A stretch of DNA of 64,000 bases from Bacteroidetes bacterium ADurb.Bin145 (lineage in GTDB: Bacteria; Bacteroidota; Bacteroidia; Bacteroidales; VadinHA17). Below, in pieces: positions 38,933-49,594 of this stretch. The notes beneath the pieces are model-generated. The model was not told where the DNA came from. It did not search any database and saw nothing but the letters and a program-made list of their open reading frames with translations. The DNA lies in the NCBI GenBank assembly GCA_002070505.1, contig MWDJ01000011.1:21679-85678 (forward strand), in the 5' to 3' direction. Position 1 is the stretch's first letter. Each line of letters begins with the position of its first letter. Made by a program: the position numbers and the translations under genes.

Positions 38933-41650
38933 TTAGATTTTACGAATTACAAAGTAGGGCTGACTGGTTAATGTTGCATTAAAACCAGGGAAGAGGCAAA
39001 CTTTTTCAGGTCCTTCTCTCAGTTCAAAATAATATTGAAGAGGATATTCAGAATTTGAATATTCAGCAGATATAGTCGCTTTATAACTATTACCGGTGCG
39101 CACCATTTCAATTGTCTGATAGCGTTCGGCATGATTGACATGACGGTAATACATTGTTACTGAAGCTATGTCCTTTTCAATCGAAAGATCAAGTTCCAGT
39201 GGTTTTCCCGCAACAAAGTTTTTCGGCTGCTGATGAAGGCATTTCACAGAAATCCGTTCTGGTTTGCCCAGGGTTTCCTGAATAGCTATCCGGACATTTT
39301 CCGGTTGCCTGTCAGAAGGCTCAATGCTTTTCAGCTTTGCAGCCATTAAATCTATATCTTTATCCATAGCGGGCAGCCTGTCGAGCCAGTGTCCCCTGAT
39401 CACATCGTTTTCCCCGATTGTAATGTCAGGTTTATATACATTCCTTGCAGTTTCAGCAAGATCAGACCAATAACCCCTGGCTTTACGGTATAATTCCAGA
39501 GACGATTCAAGGGCTGACCGATCGTTGCTCTGTTCAAAAATCCCATAAAGGACTCCCGACCTGAACCGTGCTCCAAAGAACCGGCCTAATCCGATCATTA
39601 TTTTTAGATCAATTGACACCCTCCTGAATTCAGTACTTCTTTTATCTTTTATCCTGTTTTCGGCACGGATCAGCAACCTTGATGCTTCTTCAGCATAGTT
39701 TTCTATCCATTGTGCATATTCAACAGGAGAATATTTACCGCTGCGTTCCCTTTTCAGCAGCTGACCGGCAAAATCATTGATACCCGTAAATAATTGCGGA
39801 TCAAACGGGCTGACATTACCGAAAACTTTCGGAGCGGGTGTATCAGAAAAGGGTGTTCGCATCTTCGGATCGACAACCGACAAATTAGTATAGATTTCAG
39901 GCCAGTAAATATTATTTGCAGCAGAGACTCCATGAGCTGTTGTAACGAGCGGAAGAATCCTCGAAGCGTTGGCAAGAGCCAGTTCAATGTCTTCTGATGC
40001 TTCACCAAAATGCATGTTGAGGAACCTCTGCCAGACATCCGGCTCTGTATCAGGGTTATAGGCTAATCTGCCAAAAACGCGAAGGCTGTAGAGGTATTTT
40101 TCCCAGTCCCAGCGGGGTTTCAGTGAAGAGTCAAGGTATGCGCAACGATCTCCGGAAATTCCCGATCCGCGACGGCCCTTGAAAGACAGGGGTTCCATAA
40201 GATCTACACCGGCACTCCCGCAGAAGCTGAAATTCCGTGAATGGGCAGCACTTGTCTCCGGGTCACCCCAGATCAAAAGACGTTGTGTACCTGGCCAGAT
40301 TCTATGCACCACACCATGTTTCCGGTTTTCCTTAAACAGATCGCCATAGCCGTACCGGGTAAAACTGCGCGAACCAGCACTAAGGTTCATCAGTCCCTGA
40401 GCATTTTGATTGTCTTTTGGAATTTCAAGCGCGCGAATATCAGCCTGATGATATGGCAGACCCAGGTGCTCAGCCCAGTATTTTGGAGAAATGTTAACAG
40501 GCATGCCTGATCCAACCGCCAGATCGATCATCTCCTGGTTCATCCCTTTGGCATGCATATCGATCTCAACTTCACGGCCACAGGAGGAAACACCTTCAAA
40601 AACGGTTTTCCAGAAATTGTAACTTCCTTCTGTTACTCCGCTTTCTCCATGTATGCGGAAAGTTATACCACTGATAGCAGGGCATTCCTGTAAAAGCTGC
40701 CTGACAGCATCCCTGCAATAAGGACCATGTGTTTCCGGAGTTAATCCTTTGATTGTATAATTCGGACTGGGGCTGTTCAGCCATTCATAACCATGCATCC
40801 AGATTCCCAACTGGAACTGAATACCACGGGCAACAGTATTTTCGCTTATGAACTTCAGCATTTCCAGGTTATTCTTCTGTTCCTCAACAGGCAATTCCGG
40901 TACACTGACATCGTAACCCGGGACAGACAAGAAAAACGGATAGGCAAAAAGAAAATATCCGTCAGTTACATTCTGCAGAAAGTCATAGCCGATTCCCAGG
41001 CTCAGATTAAATCGGTTAAACCTTTGCGTGGCAATCATATTAAGATACTGTTCCCACATTTCCCGGTCATTGAACCAGGGCTTGTCTTCAATATCGCTTA
41101 CAAAAAGCCGGTTCAGACTTCGGATTTTATTAGCCGGTTTCTCAATAACCGGTTTCCTGATTGTCAGGGAATCAAGGGGCTGGTCTGAATATCGCACACG
41201 GTCAGCAAGTTCCAAAACAGCATAAACAAGGCCACGTATATCATATCCACAGGCCAGCAGAACCTGTCTGCCTTCCTGTTGAACCGGAACAAGACCAAGT
41301 GCTTCCGGGATCTGCGGGATATCTGTTTTGGCTTCTTCAAGTAATTTCCGGCCCAGTAAAGAACCGGCAGAAGCTGCAACTATGATCAGATCATTATCTT
41401 TTGCATCATTAATCTGATTTGTATTCCCGACATTAATTCCCGCGGATTTCAGCCAGCTTTCAAGTTCTTTTAAAGACCATTGTACCGGCGCAGATCCGGC
41501 AATCATATCTCCGGCTTCAGTGACAATACTAACTCTTTTAGCATTGAATTTTACGCAGCCAAATGTAGAAAGCCCTGCAGCTGAAATTCCGGCGACTTTT
41601 ACGAAATCACGCCTGCTTATATTTTTATGTCCTGCAGACTGTTTCTTCAT
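38933..41650 (-). CDS. Tat-exported GH67/GH115-like (putative alpha-glucuronidase-type) protein
   Basis: This 905-residue protein starts with a Tat signal (SRRDFVKVAG) followed by a possible lipobox (STFGC). Residues 35-165 form an alpha/beta domain ending in DIRGLVYAVLELADRV, the motif that leads into the barrel of GH20/GH67/GH115-type enzymes. A TIM-barrel-like region follows (FNRFNLSLGIGYDF, FQLGIWMHGYEW, FRIHGESGV, NISPKYWAEHLGLPYHQ), then a helical region (about 520-780) and an Ig-like C-terminus. I cannot assign a CAZy family. An alpha-glucuronidase role fits the missing 4-O-methylglucuronate step of a glucuronoarabinoxylan pathway, but that is inference. Its start codon overlaps the stop of the upstream GH54 gene (ATGA), suggesting translational coupling. 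Confidence 0.6.
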   Translation of the reverse strand: MKKQSAGHKNISRRDFVKVAGISAAGLSTFGCVKFNAKRVSIVTEAGDMIAGSAPVQWSLKELESWLKSAGINVGNTNQINDAKDNDLIIVAASAGSLLGRKLLEEAKTDIPQIPEALGLVPVQQEGRQVLLACGYDIRGLVYAVLELADRVRYSDQPLDSLTIRKPVIEKPANKIRSLNRLFVSDIEDKPWFNDREMWEQYLNMIATQRFNRFNLSLGIGYDFLQNVTDGYFLFAYPFFLSVPGYDVSVPELPVEEQKNNLEMLKFISENTVARGIQFQLGIWMHGYEWLNSPSPNYTIKGLTPETHGPYCRDAVRQLLQECPAISGITFRIHGESGVTEGSYNFWKTVFEGVSSCGREVEIDMHAKGMNQEMIDLAVGSGMPVNISPKYWAEHLGLPYHQADIRALEIPKDNQNAQGLMNLSAGSRSFTRYGYGDLFKENRKHGVVHRIWPGTQRLLIWGDPETSAAHSRNFSFCGSAGVDLMEPLSFKGRRGSGISGDRCAYLDSSLKPRWDWEKYLYSLRVFGRLAYNPDTEPDVWQRFLNMHFGEASEDIELALANASRILPLVTTAHGVSAANNIYWPEIYTNLSVVDPKMRTPFSDTPAPKVFGNVSPFDPQLFTGINDFAGQLLKRERSGKYSPVEYAQWIENYAEEASRLLIRAENRIKDKRSTEFRRVSIDLKIMIGLGRFFGARFRSGVLYGIFEQSNDRSALESSLELYRKARGYWSDLAETARNVYKPDITIGENDVIRGHWLDRLPAMDKDIDLMAAKLKSIEPSDRQPENVRIAIQETLGKPERISVKCLHQQPKNFVAGKPLELDLSIEKDIASVTMYYRHVNHAERYQTIEMVRTGNSYKATISAEYSNSEYPLQYYFELREGPEKVCLFPGFNATLTSQPYFVIRKI

Positions 41651-44600
41651 TGAGGTTTTCTTACATATTGATTCGGTTCACCCGGTGTAGGGACATTGCC
41701 AGCTACCTGTGAACCTTTTTCATGAGCCATACTCAATGGCCTGGCAAGGGTTATACCACTGCCGGAGACCATTGAACCCACAGCATGCACATTTTTTAGC
41801 GGTGCAGTGACTTTGATTGTGTCCATCGGCATAGTAAAACCTCCGCCGCCAAAACGTCTGCGTCCGGCTGCTATTGAGGCGATAACTGCAGTCTCCATTT
41901 TTGCACCGGTGTTTATTGTTATTGTCTGACCGGCACTAAAGCCTTCGATGCCTGTGACAGGAATTGATGTCGCACCCGCCCCAGTAGAAGTACCCACTGT
42001 TGTTGCTCCTGCGGTGCCAATTTCAGTAATTACAGCTTTCTCGCTGTTCTTATCTGTCCCGATTATAATTTCCTGACCAATAATAAAGTCGTTCACACTG
42101 GCGGTTTTAATATTATTTGCCCCGATTCCTGATCCTGCTGACAGAGTAGTTGTGTTCTGAAGCATAAAATCAGTGCAGTTATTATCTGTATCATTTCCAT
42201 CGGGGTAACGGCCCACGCTTTTATTGTTATTTCCAGATATCGGGGCGAATGGTCCTGTGTTTCGTCCGGCACCAGGAGCTATTACTATGCAACCACCCTG
42301 ACTTTGATCGCCTTCAAGGATAGCGATCTCGGGGCTTGTGATAGTTCCATTGGCGCTTGAGTTACTCTGTCTTGATCCATAAACAATTGCATCGACAACT
42401 ACTATACCGCTATTATCAATTAAAGCGACGGAGCCTGCAGATGATGAAAGGGGAGATCCATACCACTGATCAGGTTCTACAGGGCCCTGATAACCCGAAG
42501 TTTTATCTGATGGATTAAGCACAGCTGCACCAGCTTCGTAATTATTCTTCAGAGCATCTCTCAGGGTAATGCCGCTTCCTAATGCCTGAACGGCATCTCC
42601 GCTTCTATGTTCAAAGCGGGTCGCCGGTTTAAAATCTATTCCAGTTCCTCTGTCGGATACATCTTCAGCAAGCATATGGTTGAACTTAAGGGGCACAGTC
42701 AGTTCCACCTCTCCTGTCCGGCTTCCTCCGAATCCCTGGTCAAATCCTCCGCGTGAAGGAGCCTCGACAACGTTGATAAGACGTTTAACTTCTGCCGATT
42801 CTTTACGGGAACCGGTTCCTATTGTAAGATTGTCACCGACAGTCATATTGGAATTGGCAGCAACTTTAATAACGGTTTCACCTGCTTTTGCTTCTGCAGC
42901 CAGTGTAGTCAATGTTGATGCCTTACCGACAGCAGTTACTGTGGCCACCTCATAATTACCACCAATATCGATGCCGATTTTCTGCCCAACCGTAAAGCCG
43001 TTTGTGTTAGTGACAGGCAGATTGGTTGAGCCGGCAGGGATCGTTATCCATGGACCAGTGGAGACCGGGACAAAGATCATAGCCATAGGAGAAGCTTCTG
43101 TTCCGACTTTTGCGATCGTGTAGGCCTCTCCGCCAATGACGATCTTCTGGCCAGTGCTTAATCCGGCTGTACTTCGTACATTGATAATGTTATCTCCCTG
43201 ATTTGCAGGAGCAGCAAGTCCTGAGGAGGAAAGGCCCAGCAGGAAGAACCCGTGTGCCGGTATTTTTTTGCCTTCCGGGATTGTACCAAGTTTTACAGGA
43301 GCCCATTCGCTCCTGGTGTTTACAAGAGTCCAGCCGGAGATATCAACATCCTTATCTCCCGCGTTGAATAATTCGATGAACTGGTTAGTTTGACTGGCAC
43401 TGCCTCCATCGAAGCGGATCTCGTTGATTTTAACAGGAAAAGCATTTCTGACCCTTTGGGAAGTTTCCGCAGATTGTTTTTTCCATCCGGCTCTCAATGT
43501 AATGAATCCGGCACCCGTTGTTTCTCCCGAAGTAATTTTAAATGTAGTATTTACACTTTTTCCGGGTGCTATGCGCTCACTGAAGGTCTTTGATTTATCT
43601 TCAGAACCTGATACTAAGACAGTCCAGCCTTCAGGCACGGACATGCTAAGTGTAACACCTGAAACAGCAGCTCCGGTGGTATTTGTGAATGTAGCGGTTA
43701 CTTCCTGGGAAGATCCGGGTGTAAAAGTAATAACGTGCGACAAGCTGACTCTTTGTACATCATATTTTGCCGATACGATATTCTTCTGTACGGCATCCAG
43801 GGTAGTTTCGTCAGGATATCCGGTAATCATCACTCCTTCATAGAAAGTACCGGCCGAACCATTGCCATTATCGCCGCCATTACCCATCTGAACGGCTCCC
43901 TTCCTGTGCATCGGGTAGTACCAGTCGTTGTCGAGTGAGTGAGGACGTATTCCTTTATAGAATGTTGCAAGCTCACCCTCCTGGGCGTTACCACCATGGA
44001 TCTCCCACTGATTTCCGCCGCCTCCGCTGACCATTCCGGTAACGAAGCGCCAGGAATCAATCGTAGGATTGGCAACGTTTTGTTTTGCATCGTATCCTGA
44101 GAACAGGCCGGCTTCCATATCGGACATTATCCACGGACCAGTGCCGCTGCCGCTGCCCCATGCTGTAGCTGTACCGAAATAAACTGTTTCCATTGTTCCT
44201 CTACCAACAGCCCGGCTGTTTGTTGAGGTATTGCCATAATTGAAACAGCAACCGCTGTCAAAATGTTTGCCATCACATACCATATAAATACCCTGCGGTT
44301 CATCATTGATTGCAAGTCCGGTGGCATTATTGTTTCGCAAACCCATACCCGGCATTATATAAACACCATAAGCCTTATGTCCCATTATTGTGACAGGTGC
44401 CATATCTGCAATGGGAAGTGTATTGAATCCGCCTTTTGCAGGTCCCCTGAAAGTTCCGGGAGGTGCCTGAACGAGGTGATTCCCATTTCCGGACTGATCA
44501 TAAATAGTAGTAATCCAGCATAAATCATTGGCGCAGAATGCATCCTGGGCAGCTGCATCAGCATACCCGCCCGGATCTCCCTTACCTGGCTGGACCACAC

Positions 44601-44841
44601 CTATATCAAGTGTCTTACCATCCGACTGACGCATAACCTGATACAACGGCCCGTTGTATGAAGCTAACAATGCACGTGTACTGCTATGGGCTGTCAGACA
44701 GGGGAAACCCGAAGCAGTATAAATATCGCATGGTCCTTCCGGCCTGTGAGGAATACCTATTCCGGAACATGCAATTGCCATTATAATGGCTGCAGGAACG
44801 ATCAGCGCCAGAATAATAATTGTCACAAAACGATTTTTCAT
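41647..44841 (-). CDS. GH54 alpha-L-arabinofuranosidase with split lamin-tail C-terminus
   Basis: Residues 35-370 of this 1064-residue protein match the arabinofuranosidase-B catalytic domain (GPCDIYTASGFPC, SYNGPLYQVMRQSDG, YDQSGNGNHL). The vicinal cysteines C198-C199 (SGCCF), the nucleophile Glu243 in WIMSDMEAG and the acid/base Asp324 in GNGGDN correspond to C176/C177, E221 and D297 of Aspergillus AkAbfB. The fungal CBM42 is absent. Instead there is a NEW3-like beta domain (371-465), the start of a lamin-tail domain (468-545), repeat-type strands (550-780), the middle of the lamin-tail domain (790-895), more repeats (900-1045) and the closing TPGEPN. The N-terminus is a membrane helix with a possible lipobox (AIAC). 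It is a paralogue of the 46244-49594 gene. Confidence 0.9.
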   Translation of the reverse strand: MKNRFVTIIILALIVPAAIIMAIACSGIGIPHRPEGPCDIYTASGFPCLTAHSSTRALLASYNGPLYQVMRQSDGKTLDIGVVQPGKGDPGGYADAAAQDAFCANDLCWITTIYDQSGNGNHLVQAPPGTFRGPAKGGFNTLPIADMAPVTIMGHKAYGVYIMPGMGLRNNNATGLAINDEPQGIYMVCDGKHFDSGCCFNYGNTSTNSRAVGRGTMETVYFGTATAWGSGSGTGPWIMSDMEAGLFSGYDAKQNVANPTIDSWRFVTGMVSGGGGNQWEIHGGNAQEGELATFYKGIRPHSLDNDWYYPMHRKGAVQMGNGGDNGNGSAGTFYEGVMITGYPDETTLDAVQKNIVSAKYDVQRVSLSHVITFTPGSSQEVTATFTNTTGAAVSGVTLSMSVPEGWTVLVSGSEDKSKTFSERIAPGKSVNTTFKITSGETTGAGFITLRAGWKKQSAETSQRVRNAFPVKINEIRFDGGSASQTNQFIELFNAGDKDVDISGWTLVNTRSEWAPVKLGTIPEGKKIPAHGFFLLGLSSSGLAAPANQGDNIINVRSTAGLSTGQKIVIGGEAYTIAKVGTEASPMAMIFVPVSTGPWITIPAGSTNLPVTNTNGFTVGQKIGIDIGGNYEVATVTAVGKASTLTTLAAEAKAGETVIKVAANSNMTVGDNLTIGTGSRKESAEVKRLINVVEAPSRGGFDQGFGGSRTGEVELTVPLKFNHMLAEDVSDRGTGIDFKPATRFEHRSGDAVQALGSGITLRDALKNNYEAGAAVLNPSDKTSGYQGPVEPDQWYGSPLSSSAGSVALIDNSGIVVVDAIVYGSRQSNSSANGTITSPEIAILEGDQSQGGCIVIAPGAGRNTGPFAPISGNNNKSVGRYPDGNDTDNNCTDFMLQNTTTLSAGSGIGANNIKTASVNDFIIGQEIIIGTDKNSEKAVITEIGTAGATTVGTSTGAGATSIPVTGIEGFSAGQTITINTGAKMETAVIASIAAGRRRFGGGGFTMPMDTIKVTAPLKNVHAVGSMVSGSGITLARPLSMAHEKGSQVAGNVPTPGEPNQYVRKPQ

Positions 44842-44930
44842 TTTCGTATAGGTTAGTTTGATGGTTATTTACTGAAATTAGTAGTTTATTATTACTTTAT
44901 CTTTAATCACTTTGAAGGTTTTCTATTGGG

Positions 44931-46136
44931 TTAAGGAGACGGAACACCCAGGTTCTCCTGAAGAATTCTGATGAGGTCATCAGCATTATATGGCTCCGGG
45001 ATTACCCATCGGGAACCGAAAATCATTTTTGGTATACCACCCATACCACTCTGAATGGTATAACCGTAAATCTGAGTAGAGGTTTTTATATATTGTCCTA
45101 TCCAGGGATCGGCCAATGAAGCTTCGAACTTTTCCCGGCCAACCAGCTCAATGGCTTTTTCCCTTGCGGCTTCAGGACTTCTGGGCAGCCAGTAGTTGCC
45201 TGATTCATATGTGAACATCCAGTTTTCGAAGACGGAATACGCCTTGCGATCGGCAAGCCAGACCGCCAGGCCAATCCCGGCAAGATCGCAGGAATTGATG
45301 TAGGCATCCACATCCCGGGGAATGTAAGGGTTGCACTTTGAATTCAAGGGGGCAGGACAAAGAACAAATGCAAGCTTGTTATTATAACGGTGAATTAGCT
45401 CATCGAGCATAAAATGTATTTTCTGACAATGGGGACATTGATAATCAAAAAGCAAAGTTACGATGTAAGGAGCTTCAGGAGATCCAATAACCGGTGCATT
45501 TTGATAATTGATGGCAGGCAGGTTTTGCTGTGAGCCGACGTCACTATGAACAGCCTTTGGATTGAAGGCTGCCTGGGAAACAGCCAGGACACCTGCAAGA
45601 GTCATTCCACTCAGAACCAGGCCTGTTACCGATAATGGTTTAATTATCCGCCCTGACATATTTCCACCTGTTTTAGTTAACACTCTCCAGATTACCAGAG
45701 CAGCCAGCAGCAGACCGGTTATGTGCGCGGTCATACAATAAGGGCAAAATGCCCTGATGATCCATTTCTGTAAAATTGTGAACCATATAGCGCTGCCCGC
45801 AACCGAACCTGCAAGGAATAACATTACTTTCCAGGCTAACCGGCGGATTGATTCATCTGCAGCAGGACCGGTATACATACCTGATATAAGCATAGCAAGA
45901 TATACTCCTATAGCCAGGCCGCTGACCGGGAAAACACCCGCTATATCCGACCACCGGCTGTTAAGCACTTGTTCGCACGGGCTCCCTCCGCCACAACCTG
46001 CCATAGAGCCGCCCGCCAGATAATGCCAGCTCATGATCACACTCAGTACCAAAGCTAATATGTTCAATCCCGTCAGAACAAGGCGCCACAAGGGCCAGCT
46101 CTGTTTAAGACGGGCGATTTCACCTTGATCAGTCAA
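44931..46136 (-). CDS. VKOR-DsbA fusion: periplasmic disulfide bond-forming enzyme
   Basis: Numbered from the GTG at 46169, the N-terminal half is a four-helix vitamin-K-epoxide-reductase membrane domain with the cysteine pair C59/C65 (CGGGSPC) and active site C142-P-Y-C145. A further helix (about 178-200) leads to a thioredoxin-fold domain with C245-P-H-C248 and a cis-Pro loop (GGIPKMI). Such fusions oxidise substrate dithiols and pass electrons to quinone. I prefer the TTG at 46136, which lies 8 nt behind AGGAGG, because the GTG at 46169 falls inside a terminator stem. Its position between two GH54 genes suggests it serves those cysteine-containing enzymes. Confidence 0.9.
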   Translation of the reverse strand: MTDQGEIARLKQSWPLWRLVLTGLNILALVLSVIMSWHYLAGGSMAGCGGGSPCEQVLNSRWSDIAGVFPVSGLAIGVYLAMLISGMYTGPAADESIRRLAWKVMLFLAGSVAGSAIWFTILQKWIIRAFCPYCMTAHITGLLLAALVIWRVLTKTGGNMSGRIIKPLSVTGLVLSGMTLAGVLAVSQAAFNPKAVHSDVGSQQNLPAINYQNAPVIGSPEAPYIVTLLFDYQCPHCQKIHFMLDELIHRYNNKLAFVLCPAPLNSKCNPYIPRDVDAYINSCDLAGIGLAVWLADRKAYSVFENWMFTYESGNYWLPRSPEAAREKAIELVGREKFEASLADPWIGQYIKTSTQIYGYTIQSGMGGIPKMIFGSRWVIPEPYNADDLIRILQENLGVPSP

Positions 46137-46162
46137 AATCAAATCCTCCTGTGTTTTGAAAT

Positions 46163-46210
46163 AAAACACCCCGCGGTATCTGATTTTACTTTCGATCCGC
46201 GGAGTGTTTT
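46163..46210 (-). terminator. Hairpin terminator after the upstream GH54 gene
   Basis: AAAACAC-C-CCGCGG (46163-46176) pairs with CCGCGG-A-GTGTTTT (46197-46210): 13 base pairs with one mismatch and a 20-nt loop. On the minus strand the stem ends in GTGTTTTATTTC, so the T-rich tail is part of the stem. It lies 34 bp after the GH54 stop and just before the VKOR-DsbA start. Confidence 0.7.
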
Positions 46211-46243
46211 CAATATATTAATATAAACCAGCTTTCATGTTAA

Positions 46244-49200
46244 CTAAGGCCTCCTTACATATTGATTAGGTTCACCTGGTGTCGGGAGGTTACTTGATAA
46301 CTGCTCACCATTTTCATGAGCTTTGGTCAGAGGAGAAGTAAGGGTTATACCGCTGCCGGAGACCTGAGCACCAACAGCATGTGCAAATTTAAGGGGCATT
46401 GTTACCTTAATTGAGTCCATTGGCATACTGCCACCTCCGGCGCCAGGTCCCATACGACGTCGTCCGGCAGATGTTGAAGCAACAACAGCAGTCTCGAGGT
46501 TTGCACCACCATCGATCGTGATGGACTGGCCGGCATTAAATCCTTCCATGCTGACCACAGGAATAACAGTAATACCTGCTTTAGTAGCAGTACCTACTGT
46601 TGTGCCACCGGTTGTACCAACAATCGCGATTACTGCGGTCTCACTGTTCCTGCCGCTTCCGATAATTATTTTCTGACCGTTTACAAAGTTTGCCACGCTT
46701 CCTACTTTAATGTTTTTTGAACCTGCTGCTGCCGGAGCCAGAAGGCTGATCGCATTCTGCAGCTGGAAATCACGGCAATTGAAGTCGCTGTCGGCACCAT
46801 CAGGGTAACGGCCGGCGCTTCTGTTTGGCTGGCTGGCAGGTGCAGTCTGTCCCATCCTGAAGCCTCTGCCGGCAGATGGCGCAGGTACCAGGCATCCGCT
46901 TGCTCCTGCACCTGAAGCAGCCTGATAACCCTCAGCTGCCCACGGATCAACAAGTAAGCCATAGTTGAGACCATCAACAACATTGCCATTAGCGTCACGC
47001 AGTACCATATTACCGGCACTGGCGGAAAGTGCCGGACCACCGAACCATTGGTCAGGCGCTGGTGCTCCCTGGTAACCCGCAGTATTTACTTTTTCATCCC
47101 GTACTACATCATCAATATCGTGATCATTTGCCAGAGGCTGGTCGAAAGTGATGCTGTAGCTGAGTGCCAAAACAGGCTCATTGCTGGAGTGAGCAAAGGC
47201 TGTTGCAGGTTTGAAGCTTATACCTGTTCCCCTTGCACTGAAAGGCATGTTTGATGCATGATTGAATTTCAGACGTCCGGTAAGATCCAGCCCTGTACCA
47301 GGATCATCCTTTGCCGTAAGCGGACCGTTGAAGGTACTGCGGGAAGATTGAGTTCCGACACGTTTCACAGTGACAGTTTCGATTCCATGTCCCTTGCTGT
47401 CGATATCAAGTCTGATCTTATCACCTGGTGAGATATTTTCGACTGAAGAAACTTTAATGTTCCTGTCACCAGGTTTAGCATCCATTGAGAGCCATGCCTG
47501 AGTGCCGGGTTTGCCAACCTGGGTTATCGTAACTATCTCGTATTTTTCAATAAACTGAGAAGCGGAGGGATAAGTGGCCCCATAACCGATAGCCATTTTC
47601 TGTCCGACTTCGAAGCCGCTGACACTTGTGACAGGAATATTGACAGATCCTTTGGGGATTGTTATTACCGGACCATCGGGCAGGGGCTGCCAAACCGTTG
47701 TTGAGCCTCTGGGTCCGCCTCTCTGTCCACCACCAAATGGTAAAGCTGGCGTTTCAGGCGCAGAAGGTGCTGTGAGGCTTACTATCCTTCGGGTTTCCAT
47801 TGCCGGTCCGGTACCGATCTGTACCATATCTCCTACCGACATATCTGTTGTATTCCTGACATAAATTGTCTTTTCTCCCTTTTTTGCCGGAACTACAAGT
47901 CCGGAGTTGGAAAGACCTAACAGGTAGAAACTTCTCGGAGATAGTTTTATCCCGGCAGGGATCTTCACGGATGAGAAGATCGGCATCTGGGTCTGGTGTT
48001 GAGTGAGAGTCCAGCCTGAAATATCGACCTCACTGTCTCCTGCATTATAAAGTTCTATGAATGAGTTTGTTGAGTTGTCTGCAGAACCATCGCTTACACG
48101 AAACTCATTAATCTTTACAGGACTTACATTACGGACTTTTTCAACCGTTGTTTCGGACCGGTTTCGGCCGTTACCTGAATCTGTCCATGTTGCTTTGCCG
48201 ATCAGATCCCCGTTGAAAAACTCCGATCCTGAAGTAACAGTGAATGTTGCACTGACACTTTCGCCTGGTGCTACCGGGGCAGAGAATTTTTTCGAAGTTT
48301 CGTTTGTACTTAAGACAACGGATTTCCATCCTCTGGGTACAGTAATACTTAGAGTTACATCCTTAACAGAAGCTCCTGTTGAATTTGTGAAAGTAACAGT
48401 AGTGTTTTGTGAGGTACGTGGTGAGAAAGTCTGAAGTCCGGGAGGAGTATCTGTTTCATTTGCAGGAGCTATGCTCAGGTAATGTACATTGTATTTTGCA
48501 GCTACTACATTGGCCTGGATTTTCTGATTTGTTTCCTGTGTGGGGAAAGTACCCGCTGCGGTCATTGCACCTTCATAGAAGGTACCTTGTGAGCCAACAC
48601 TGTTATCACCACCATTACCCAGCAGGATAGCTCCCTGCTTGCGCATCGGGTCATAGCTGCTTCTGTCATTTATAACACGCGATCCATCGAACATGACTTG
48701 CAGATTACCCTGCTGGGCATCTCCTCCCATTGATCTCCAGTGATGAGGTTCGCCGTCAGCTGTTGCAGTCACGAAGCGCCAGGAGATACTTGGCAGATCG
48801 GGGCAGTATTTATCGTTCGGGGATGGATTGACACAGCCGACCAGGTTATTTTCCTGGTCAGTCATGATCCATGGTCCGGGGGCCTGCCCACGATACCAGG
48901 CAGTGGCATTGCCATAGTAGGTTGTTTCCATTGTACCATCTCCGTCGTCACGGCTGTCGGTCTCTGCATTGCCGTAATCGAAGCAGCATCCGGAGTTGTA
49001 ATGATGTCCGCTGATTACCCAATACTGACCTTCGGCCTGGTCGTCGACAGCAGTACCAACCGGATCGTCGTCGCGAAGTCCCATACCCGGTTCGATGAAG
49101 ACACCATAAACTTTATGGCCCTGTATCGTAACAGGAGCCATGTCGGCGACTGGCAGATTGTTAAATCCGCCCATTGCCGGGCCACTGAATCCGCCCCGGG

Positions 49201-49594
49201 GAGCCTGGGTCAGGTGATTGCCTTTACCTGACTGGTCATAGAGAACAGTGATCCAGCAGTAAGTATTGGCGCAGAAAGCATCCTGAGCGGCCGCGTCAGC
49301 ATATCCTCCGGGATCGCCCTCGCTGGGTTGCGCGACACCTATATCAAGGGTCTTGCCGTCTGATTGCCGCATTACCTGGTACAGCGGGCCATTATAGGAA
49401 GCATATAATGCACGCGTACTGCTGTGAGCTGCCACGCACGGATTGCCGGCAGCAGCATAGACATCGCATGGACCTTCCGCTCTTGGCGGAGCAGCCTTGC
49501 TCCCCAACCCCGACATTGCCATTACCATTATCATGGCAGCAGGCAATATAAGTGCCAGTGTAAGAATAATTAAGAAACGACTTTTCTTCTTCAT
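46244..49594 (-). CDS. GH54 alpha-L-arabinofuranosidase with split lamin-tail C-terminus
   Basis: This 1116-residue paralogue of the 41647-44841 protein carries the GH54 domain at about 40-375, with vicinal cysteines C203-C204 (SGCCFDYGN), nucleophile Glu248 in WIMTDQENN and acid/base Asp330 in GNGGDNS. It has extra cysteines (C254, C264) that its sister lacks. The tail repeats the same plan: NEW3-like domain, lamin-tail start (VKINEFRVSDGS, DISGWTL), repeat block (SVNIPVTSVSGFEVGQKM), lamin-tail middle (NMVLRDANGNVVDGLNYG, SAGRYPDGADSDFNC), second repeat block and TPGEPN at the end. GH54 enzymes release arabinofuranose from arabinan and arabinoxylan. An N-terminal membrane segment implies export. 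The AAGGAG ribosome site is better than at most genes here. Confidence 0.9.
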   Translation of the reverse strand: MKKKSRFLIILTLALILPAAMIMVMAMSGLGSKAAPPRAEGPCDVYAAAGNPCVAAHSSTRALYASYNGPLYQVMRQSDGKTLDIGVAQPSEGDPGGYADAAAQDAFCANTYCWITVLYDQSGKGNHLTQAPRGGFSGPAMGGFNNLPVADMAPVTIQGHKVYGVFIEPGMGLRDDDPVGTAVDDQAEGQYWVISGHHYNSGCCFDYGNAETDSRDDGDGTMETTYYGNATAWYRGQAPGPWIMTDQENNLVGCVNPSPNDKYCPDLPSISWRFVTATADGEPHHWRSMGGDAQQGNLQVMFDGSRVINDRSSYDPMRKQGAILLGNGGDNSVGSQGTFYEGAMTAAGTFPTQETNQKIQANVVAAKYNVHYLSIAPANETDTPPGLQTFSPRTSQNTTVTFTNSTGASVKDVTLSITVPRGWKSVVLSTNETSKKFSAPVAPGESVSATFTVTSGSEFFNGDLIGKATWTDSGNGRNRSETTVEKVRNVSPVKINEFRVSDGSADNSTNSFIELYNAGDSEVDISGWTLTQHQTQMPIFSSVKIPAGIKLSPRSFYLLGLSNSGLVVPAKKGEKTIYVRNTTDMSVGDMVQIGTGPAMETRRIVSLTAPSAPETPALPFGGGQRGGPRGSTTVWQPLPDGPVITIPKGSVNIPVTSVSGFEVGQKMAIGYGATYPSASQFIEKYEIVTITQVGKPGTQAWLSMDAKPGDRNIKVSSVENISPGDKIRLDIDSKGHGIETVTVKRVGTQSSRSTFNGPLTAKDDPGTGLDLTGRLKFNHASNMPFSARGTGISFKPATAFAHSSNEPVLALSYSITFDQPLANDHDIDDVVRDEKVNTAGYQGAPAPDQWFGGPALSASAGNMVLRDANGNVVDGLNYGLLVDPWAAEGYQAASGAGASGCLVPAPSAGRGFRMGQTAPASQPNRSAGRYPDGADSDFNCRDFQLQNAISLLAPAAAGSKNIKVGSVANFVNGQKIIIGSGRNSETAVIAIVGTTGGTTVGTATKAGITVIPVVSMEGFNAGQSITIDGGANLETAVVASTSAGRRRMGPGAGGGSMPMDSIKVTMPLKFAHAVGAQVSGSGITLTSPLTKAHENGEQLSSNLPTPGEPNQYVRRP

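Follow-up and report, generated by a model that had tools for sequence, protein, structure and literature searches.

A VKOR-DsbA Fusion Gene Paired with GH54 Genes as a Candidate Client-Dedicated Oxidative-Folding System

The sequence studied here, referred to as the window, is a stretch of 64,000 nucleotides from Bacteroidetes bacterium ADurb.Bin145 (GenBank assembly GCA_002070505.1, contig MWDJ01000011.1, positions 21,679 to 85,678). On its minus strand lies a gene (44931–46136) encoding a VKOR membrane domain fused to a DsbA-type thioredoxin domain, and 107 bp upstream of it (74 bp if the GTG codon at 46169 is taken as the start) lies a gene of the glycoside hydrolase family GH54 (46244–49594, minus strand). 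Judged from domain matches, gene order and distribution, VKOR-DsbA is quite probably a quinone-linked folding enzyme dedicated to one client, namely the GH54 protein encoded with it. The pairing goes beyond chance, since this VKOR is the only VKOR match of its genome and the same pair recurs in other genomes.

Recurrence of the Gene Pair

Five GH54 catalytic domains were used to scan a collection with one genome for each species. At least 499 relatives came back, of which the nearest 80 were kept; counting was limited to the 68 loci whose GH54 frame is followed by at least 700 bp, and 12 loci with less DNA were left out. VKOR-DsbA lies directly downstream of GH54 on the same strand in 45 of the 68, which is the arrangement expected of an oxidase encoded with its client, co-transcription being presumed. 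The adjacency is found at 36 of 40 loci in Bacteroidota, 7 of 7 in Planctomycetota, 1 of 1 in Verrucomicrobiota and 1 of 1 in Ignavibacteriota. The first-pass annotation had named a usual lack of VKOR near the GH54 genes of related genomes as telling against its idea of a polysaccharide utilisation locus carrying its own oxidative-folding enzyme for GH54; the Bacteroidota count shows the opposite. As to linkage, that idea is borne out in Bacteroidota and three other phyla but not in Acidobacteriota, and the mechanism set out below is the best-fitting account of it.

The neighbours were clustered for 46 linked loci (44 of the 45, L052 being dropped as a duplicate of the G074 contig, together with the window and G178), using open frames of at least 150 aa in flanks of up to 10 kb, shorter in some loci. 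These loci had been chosen for having both genes, and the informative point is the absence of a third: the GH54 cluster covers 43 and the VKOR cluster 40 of the 46 loci (the rest were lost to frame selection or clustering), the next family occurs in 12 of the 46, and no third neighbour is comparably conserved. The client might also be sought in some other enzyme of the polysaccharide utilisation locus that contains cysteines, as the window holds further proteins rich in cysteines, but GH54 is the only constant neighbour, and it is very improbable that the client is not GH54 but one of these.

The pair also appears in genomes sampled without regard to similarity. Among 247 genomes of the window's order, a VKOR match was found in 14 and a GH54 match in 4 (one of them partial, 28 bits). 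Full-length GH54 is present in three, namely the window's own genome (G000), G074 and G178; in each of these the single VKOR match lies immediately behind GH54, and no other genome of the sample has a GH54-type VKOR. When 32 linked VKORs were used as the query against 393 genomes of the order, strong matches came only from G000, G074 and G178 (603, 556 and 514 bits), the next reaching 31 bits. A reciprocal model, built from the linked VKORs except those of the window, G178 and L052, was used to score 17 VKOR loci of the order sample, 30 loci of host genomes and 9 inspected regions. With this model, GH54-linked VKORs score at least 468 bits among the matches listed, two stand-alone VKORs of this type 549 and 402 bits, a paralogue in Aeoliella 202 bits, and all the remaining VKORs at most 51 bits. 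Other VKORs of the order share PF07884 with the window fusion, but under the GH54-linked model, where member proteins exceed 400 bits, they get no further than 33; one of them (L179) lies, by eye and without a family search, near a gene resembling a peptidase-type ABC transporter. The Aeoliella paralogue (L183:6830-8245), on whose contig no GH54 stands among the matches listed, possibly represents a sister family with another client.

In the samples reaching beyond the order, full-length GH54 was found in 1 of 395 genomes of the phylum sample (the window's own) and in 1 of 392 genomes of the Planctomycetota sample (the sample centre), the other matches being partial. Long frames with partial PF09206 matches at profile positions 8–112 (L024–L028 and L207–L210, from both samples) perhaps contain a shared subdomain instead of a full GH54.

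The VKOR-DsbA Protein

The fusion of a VKOR membrane domain to a thioredoxin domain, already proposed in the first-pass annotation, was confirmed by Pfam and by the fold model. VKOR (PF07884) is matched with E 1.6e-19 and 70.8 bits against a cut-off of 27.5, and Thioredoxin_4 (PF13462) with E 4.4e-6, also over its cut-off; the Pfam DSBA match (1.5e-4) falls below the cut-off. All 32 aligned linked VKORs match PF07884 at E ≤ 0.001. The open frame reaches the GTG at 46169, but the TTG at 46136, with AGGAGG just upstream, looks like the better start, so that the start given earlier stands, and the earlier numbering of the loop cysteines as C59/C65, which belongs to the 412-aa frame, becomes C48/C54 in the 401-aa protein. 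In the latter numbering, the membrane motif CPYC is C131/C134, the CPHC motif of the C-terminal DsbA-fold domain is C234/C237, and further cysteines are C268/C283.

The structure model of the fusion (mean pLDDT 87, pTM 0.66) has five long helices followed by a thioredoxin-type domain, and its fold matches at E ≤ 0.001 include ScsC, alpha-DsbA2 and the Synechococcus VKOR, the target TM reaching 0.75 for the DsbA/ScsC matches. None of the 47 linked VKORs lacks any of the six redox cysteines (two in the loop, two in the membrane CxxC and two in the DsbA CxxC), even though pairwise identity among them falls to 29%. Reduction of quinone by the VKOR domain would be expected from its family.

The GH54 Proteins and Their Cysteines

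Pfam matches to all three genes bear out the earlier statement that VKOR-DsbA lies between two GH54 genes. The second GH54 gene (41647–44841, minus strand) begins 89 bp downstream and is the next gene after VKOR; its catalytic domain is 61% identical to that of the upstream one. PF09206 is matched in the two neighbours with E 1.7e-125 and 2.6e-120 (419 and 402 bits, cut-off 25), and each also carries NPCBM_assoc (NEW3) and lamin-tail domains. In the upstream protein, PF09206 covers aa 42–368, behind a hydrophobic N-terminus that looks signal-like by eye. Alpha-L-arabinofuranosidase activity of both is predicted by the family match; the GH54 structure model (mean pLDDT 52) was not used.

A quick tree of GH54, in which many forks are weakly supported, contains two well supported clades. 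Clade I, with the upstream GH54 of the window, precedes VKOR where linked; clade II has 12 rows including the second GH54 of the window, and only four of them directly follow VKOR (window, L036, L068 and L083). What is conserved of the earlier picture is therefore the order of GH54 followed by VKOR, and not the embedding between two GH54s, the second GH54 being of another clade.

The catalytic domain of the clade I GH54 of the window has four cysteine pairs, C43/C53, C108/C113, the vicinal C203/C204 and C254/C264; the clade II protein has three of them and lacks C254/C264, a pair absent from all 12 clade II rows. In the 46 linked clade I GH54s, C43/C53 is present in 43 (neither cysteine in 3), C108/C113 and the vicinal pair in all 46, and C254/C264 in 45 (neither in 1), without a half pair anywhere. 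The vicinal pair is complete in each of the 93 GH54 rows; the first pair is halved in 1 row and the second in 5, none of these rows being in linked clade I. All six catalytic-domain cysteines of AkAbfB align with the bacterial GH54s. In the AkAbfB structure the cysteines reportedly form disulfides, one of them vicinal. The vicinal SGCC pair and the other conserved cysteines pointed out by the first-pass annotation are thus present, and nothing was found that gives the vicinal pair a special role over the others. Raw cysteine content was rejected as an argument for GH54 as the client, because other proteins of the window hold as many; conservation pair by pair is the useful measure. In the GH54 frames of one planctomycetotal locus (L185:1-3691), glycine replaces the first cysteine of the N-terminal pair, and the downstream DNA ends at the contig edge.

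Oxidases of the Host Genomes

The inventory covered 53 genomes, 30 linked (those of 27 of the 45 linked loci together with G000, G074 and G178) and 23 unlinked. Exactly one VKOR match, next to GH54 on the same contig, was found in 25 of the 30 linked genomes, including that of the window, and no VKOR match lies away from GH54 in 27 of the 30, the exceptions being G669, G672 and G674. DsbB was found in 0 of the 30 linked genomes (G000 included) and in 2 of all 53 searched, both unlinked Gemmatimonadota. For PF13462, the fusion is the only match in G074 and G178, and G000 has one further weak match. Since most linked genomes searched are without DsbB and without another VKOR match, the fusion appears to come with an oxidant of its own.

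The same inventory could be claimed for a general disulfide oxidase with many exported clients, placed beside GH54 by chance or by shared regulation: 25 of the 30 linked genomes have no VKOR match besides it, none of the 30 has a DsbB match, other window proteins have cysteines, and in two Bacteroidota genomes such a VKOR is located apart from GH54. A housekeeping gene would, however, be expected in relatives without GH54, and this VKOR type occurs in only 3 of the 393 order genomes, each time beside GH54; neighbourhoods vary and GH54 remains; and the two genomes with two copies (G675 and G676) seem to have both beside GH54, one GH54-like end in G676 being cut by the contig and recognised by eye. 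A general oxidase is therefore an unlikely explanation, and the dedicated enzyme is preferred.

Several observations weigh against this dedicated role. The sample of GH54 loci is biased towards its query, which was itself mostly VKOR-linked: of the five query rows, three lie ahead of a VKOR and a fourth lies behind one. GH54 stands without an adjacent VKOR at 23 of the 68 loci, the adjacency being 0 of 14 in Acidobacteriota, 0 of 2 in Gemmatimonadota and 0 of 3 where no phylum is given (two KSB1 and one unnamed bacterium), and no PF07884 match was found in 14 of the 23 unlinked genomes; on these counts, GH54 can do without a VKOR partner or uses an oxidase missed by the models, and the dependence is not universal. 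Draft genomes may moreover miss genes, and other oxidases could escape the inventory. The 23 unlinked clade I GH54s keep the four cysteine pairs nearly as well (complete in 21, 22, 23 and 23), so that cysteine pairing does not account for the carriage of VKOR. The window genome itself has a third GH54 (C2:186816-187820; L029:6597-9950), which adjoins a beta-helix protein, and no VKOR-like frame was found among the open frames of the surrounding 19 kb. Other window proteins with up to 16 cysteines could be clients too. The linked state requires 9 changes on the 77 scored tree rows, and the correlation between GH54 and VKOR distances (r 0.71, where 2000 permutations gave no value above 0.21), which counts in favour of the dedicated role, may also come from shared descent or joint transfer. 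Finally, for two of the Bacteroidota exceptions, L035 and L096, the genome does carry a VKOR that scores as GH54-linked (549 and 402 bits), but not on the contig of the GH54 locus.

The GH54 of L035 is split between reading frames. Of the other Bacteroidota exceptions, L080 belongs to a genome with a GH54–VKOR pair at another GH54 (G643:C30), and the genome of L071 has no PF07884 match. At L175:6586-7759, a GH54-type VKOR occupies a contig end and is preceded by two genes that look peroxiredoxin-like by eye, the GH54s of that genome being on another contig and split between frames. At 25 loci without VKOR, no other thiol oxidase was recognised within about 4.5 kb of GH54, as judged by eye with no family search of those neighbours. 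A habitat rule, by which anaerobes need the VKOR and aerobes do not, was dropped: among the carriers of the pair, Mucilaginibacter and Aeoliella are usually aerobes, and two loci from KSB1 lack the VKOR neighbour.

The Junction Hairpin and Transfer between Phyla

Between GH54 and VKOR in the window (46164–46210, minus strand) lies a terminator-like hairpin, a 14-pair stem of the form CTCCGCGG...CCGCGG followed by a T-rich stretch, with z -3.8 against shuffles; a simple terminator scan with a loop limit of 8 bases did not list it. A near-identical TCCGCGG...CGCGG stem is found at 10 of the 47 linked junctions (window, L036, L041, L043, L048, L052, L058, L062, L063 and L074), which span Bacteroidota, Ignavibacteriota and Planctomycetota. 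Twelve junctions were folded, of which L034, L039, L049 and L108 were without unusual stability and L048 had little. Stems of the GGACAATGG type in several gut loci were not counted, as by eye they seem to lie inside the VKOR reading frame. Six further hairpin sites were found elsewhere in the 1.44 Mb scanned. With a stricter pattern in 11 genomes, most of them chosen for a known junction, the junction was the single site in six, no site was found in four, and the GC-rich G688 had 35 (control 24). After unlinked GH54s, a script rule found no hairpin within 200 bp; in L035, where GH54 is split, one lies about 37 nt beyond the 3′ part, a hint that the hairpin belongs to the GH54 end. At the junction it would act as a terminator with some transcription read-through.

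Across phyla, identity between linked GH54 catalytic domains does not drop below 69%, which suggests transfer between phyla. This identity, the nearly identical hairpin in three phyla and surrounding genes that are mostly not shared would also suit a cassette in which both genes moved together without functional coupling. An idle partner should decay, yet the VKORs keep all their redox cysteines at the low identity given above, and the pair is retained, with few exceptions, through a 37-row Bacteroidota group of the tree; mere hitch-hiking is thus decidedly improbable. A wider picture is offered tentatively, with slightly less than even confidence: GH54 and VKOR-DsbA, together with the junction hairpin where present, may form a portable two-gene oxidative-folding module that moved between phyla and that in many hosts is the only dedicated disulfide route for exported proteins, a redox pathway kept for a single carbohydrate-active enzyme whose fold maybe came from a eukaryote.

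Proposed Mechanism and Surroundings of the Pair

In the mechanism proposed, GH54 would be exported with its cysteines reduced, and the DsbA-fold domain, by its CPHC or CSHC motif, would hand a disulfide to it as the presumed client. The DsbA domain would then be re-oxidised by the loop cysteines of VKOR, and the membrane CxxC would pass the electrons to quinone, presumably menaquinone in an anaerobe, both steps following what is known of the family. The intervening hairpin may hold the amount of catalyst below that of its client. On this reading, the client would need VKOR-DsbA in order to become active.

The genes flanking the pair in the window encode SusC/SusD-like proteins, GH43, GH127, GH3, GH95 and GH97 enzymes, an alpha-L-arabinofuranosidase of another family, an alpha-L-fucosidase and esterases, and these surroundings look like a polysaccharide utilisation locus.

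Relation to Known Systems and Meaning

An oxidase encoded with its client is known in principle. DsbI, the membrane protein of the system concerned, belongs to the DsbB family. According to the available parts of two papers, uropathogenic E. coli CFT073 has a specific Dsb pair, DsbL/DsbI, encoded in an aryl sulfotransferase operon and required for efficient production of the functional client (PMC13426309, PMC6067686); the strain also has DsbA/DsbB, and the client has one disulfide (PMC6067686). VKOR-DsbA resembles DsbL/DsbI in being encoded with its presumed client, which would likewise need it. However, DsbL/DsbI consists of two proteins for one client disulfide, whereas VKOR-DsbA is one fusion for a presumed client with three to four cysteine pairs in its catalytic domain; the DsbL/DsbI host also has DsbA/DsbB, whereas the VKOR-DsbA hosts searched are usually without another VKOR or a DsbB match, and the pair is found in four phyla. 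The membrane part of the window fusion is VKOR by Pfam and not of the DsbB family, so that the two systems would be alike in working without VKOR-DsbA being a member of the other. VKOR-DsbA with GH54 thus appears to be a new form of the principle of a client-dedicated, co-encoded oxidase.

The VKOR-thioredoxin fusion of Synechococcus (PDB 4nv6, 3kp9) shares with the window protein the VKOR core, the aligned loop and CxxC cysteines and the thioredoxin-fold domain that follows. Unlike it, the window protein has a C-terminal domain that best matches DsbA-type proteins (ScsC, alpha-DsbA2), and its gene is tied to a glycoside hydrolase. On the client side, the catalytic region of the Aspergillus GH54 protein AkAbfB (PDB 1wd3) matches the window GH54 at E 7e-107 with six cysteines conserved. 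AkAbfB has CBM42 and folds in the eukaryotic secretory pathway. In comparison, bacterial clade I adds C254/C264, and the window GH54s carry NEW3 and lamin-tail domains with no other carbohydrate-binding-module match in Pfam. A literature search, with most subscription journals outside its coverage, found nothing tying VKOR to GH54, the papers on related topics dealing with other subjects, recombinant inclusion bodies among them, by title or start of abstract.

In summary, one exported enzyme seems to carry its own oxidase, because neither DsbB nor another VKOR was found in most linked genomes searched, and this makes GH54 a clear candidate client for disulfide formation in such bacteria. A bacterial GH54 expressed without its VKOR-DsbA partner may fold badly, and adjacency to VKOR would offer a way to look for other private pairs of oxidase and client.

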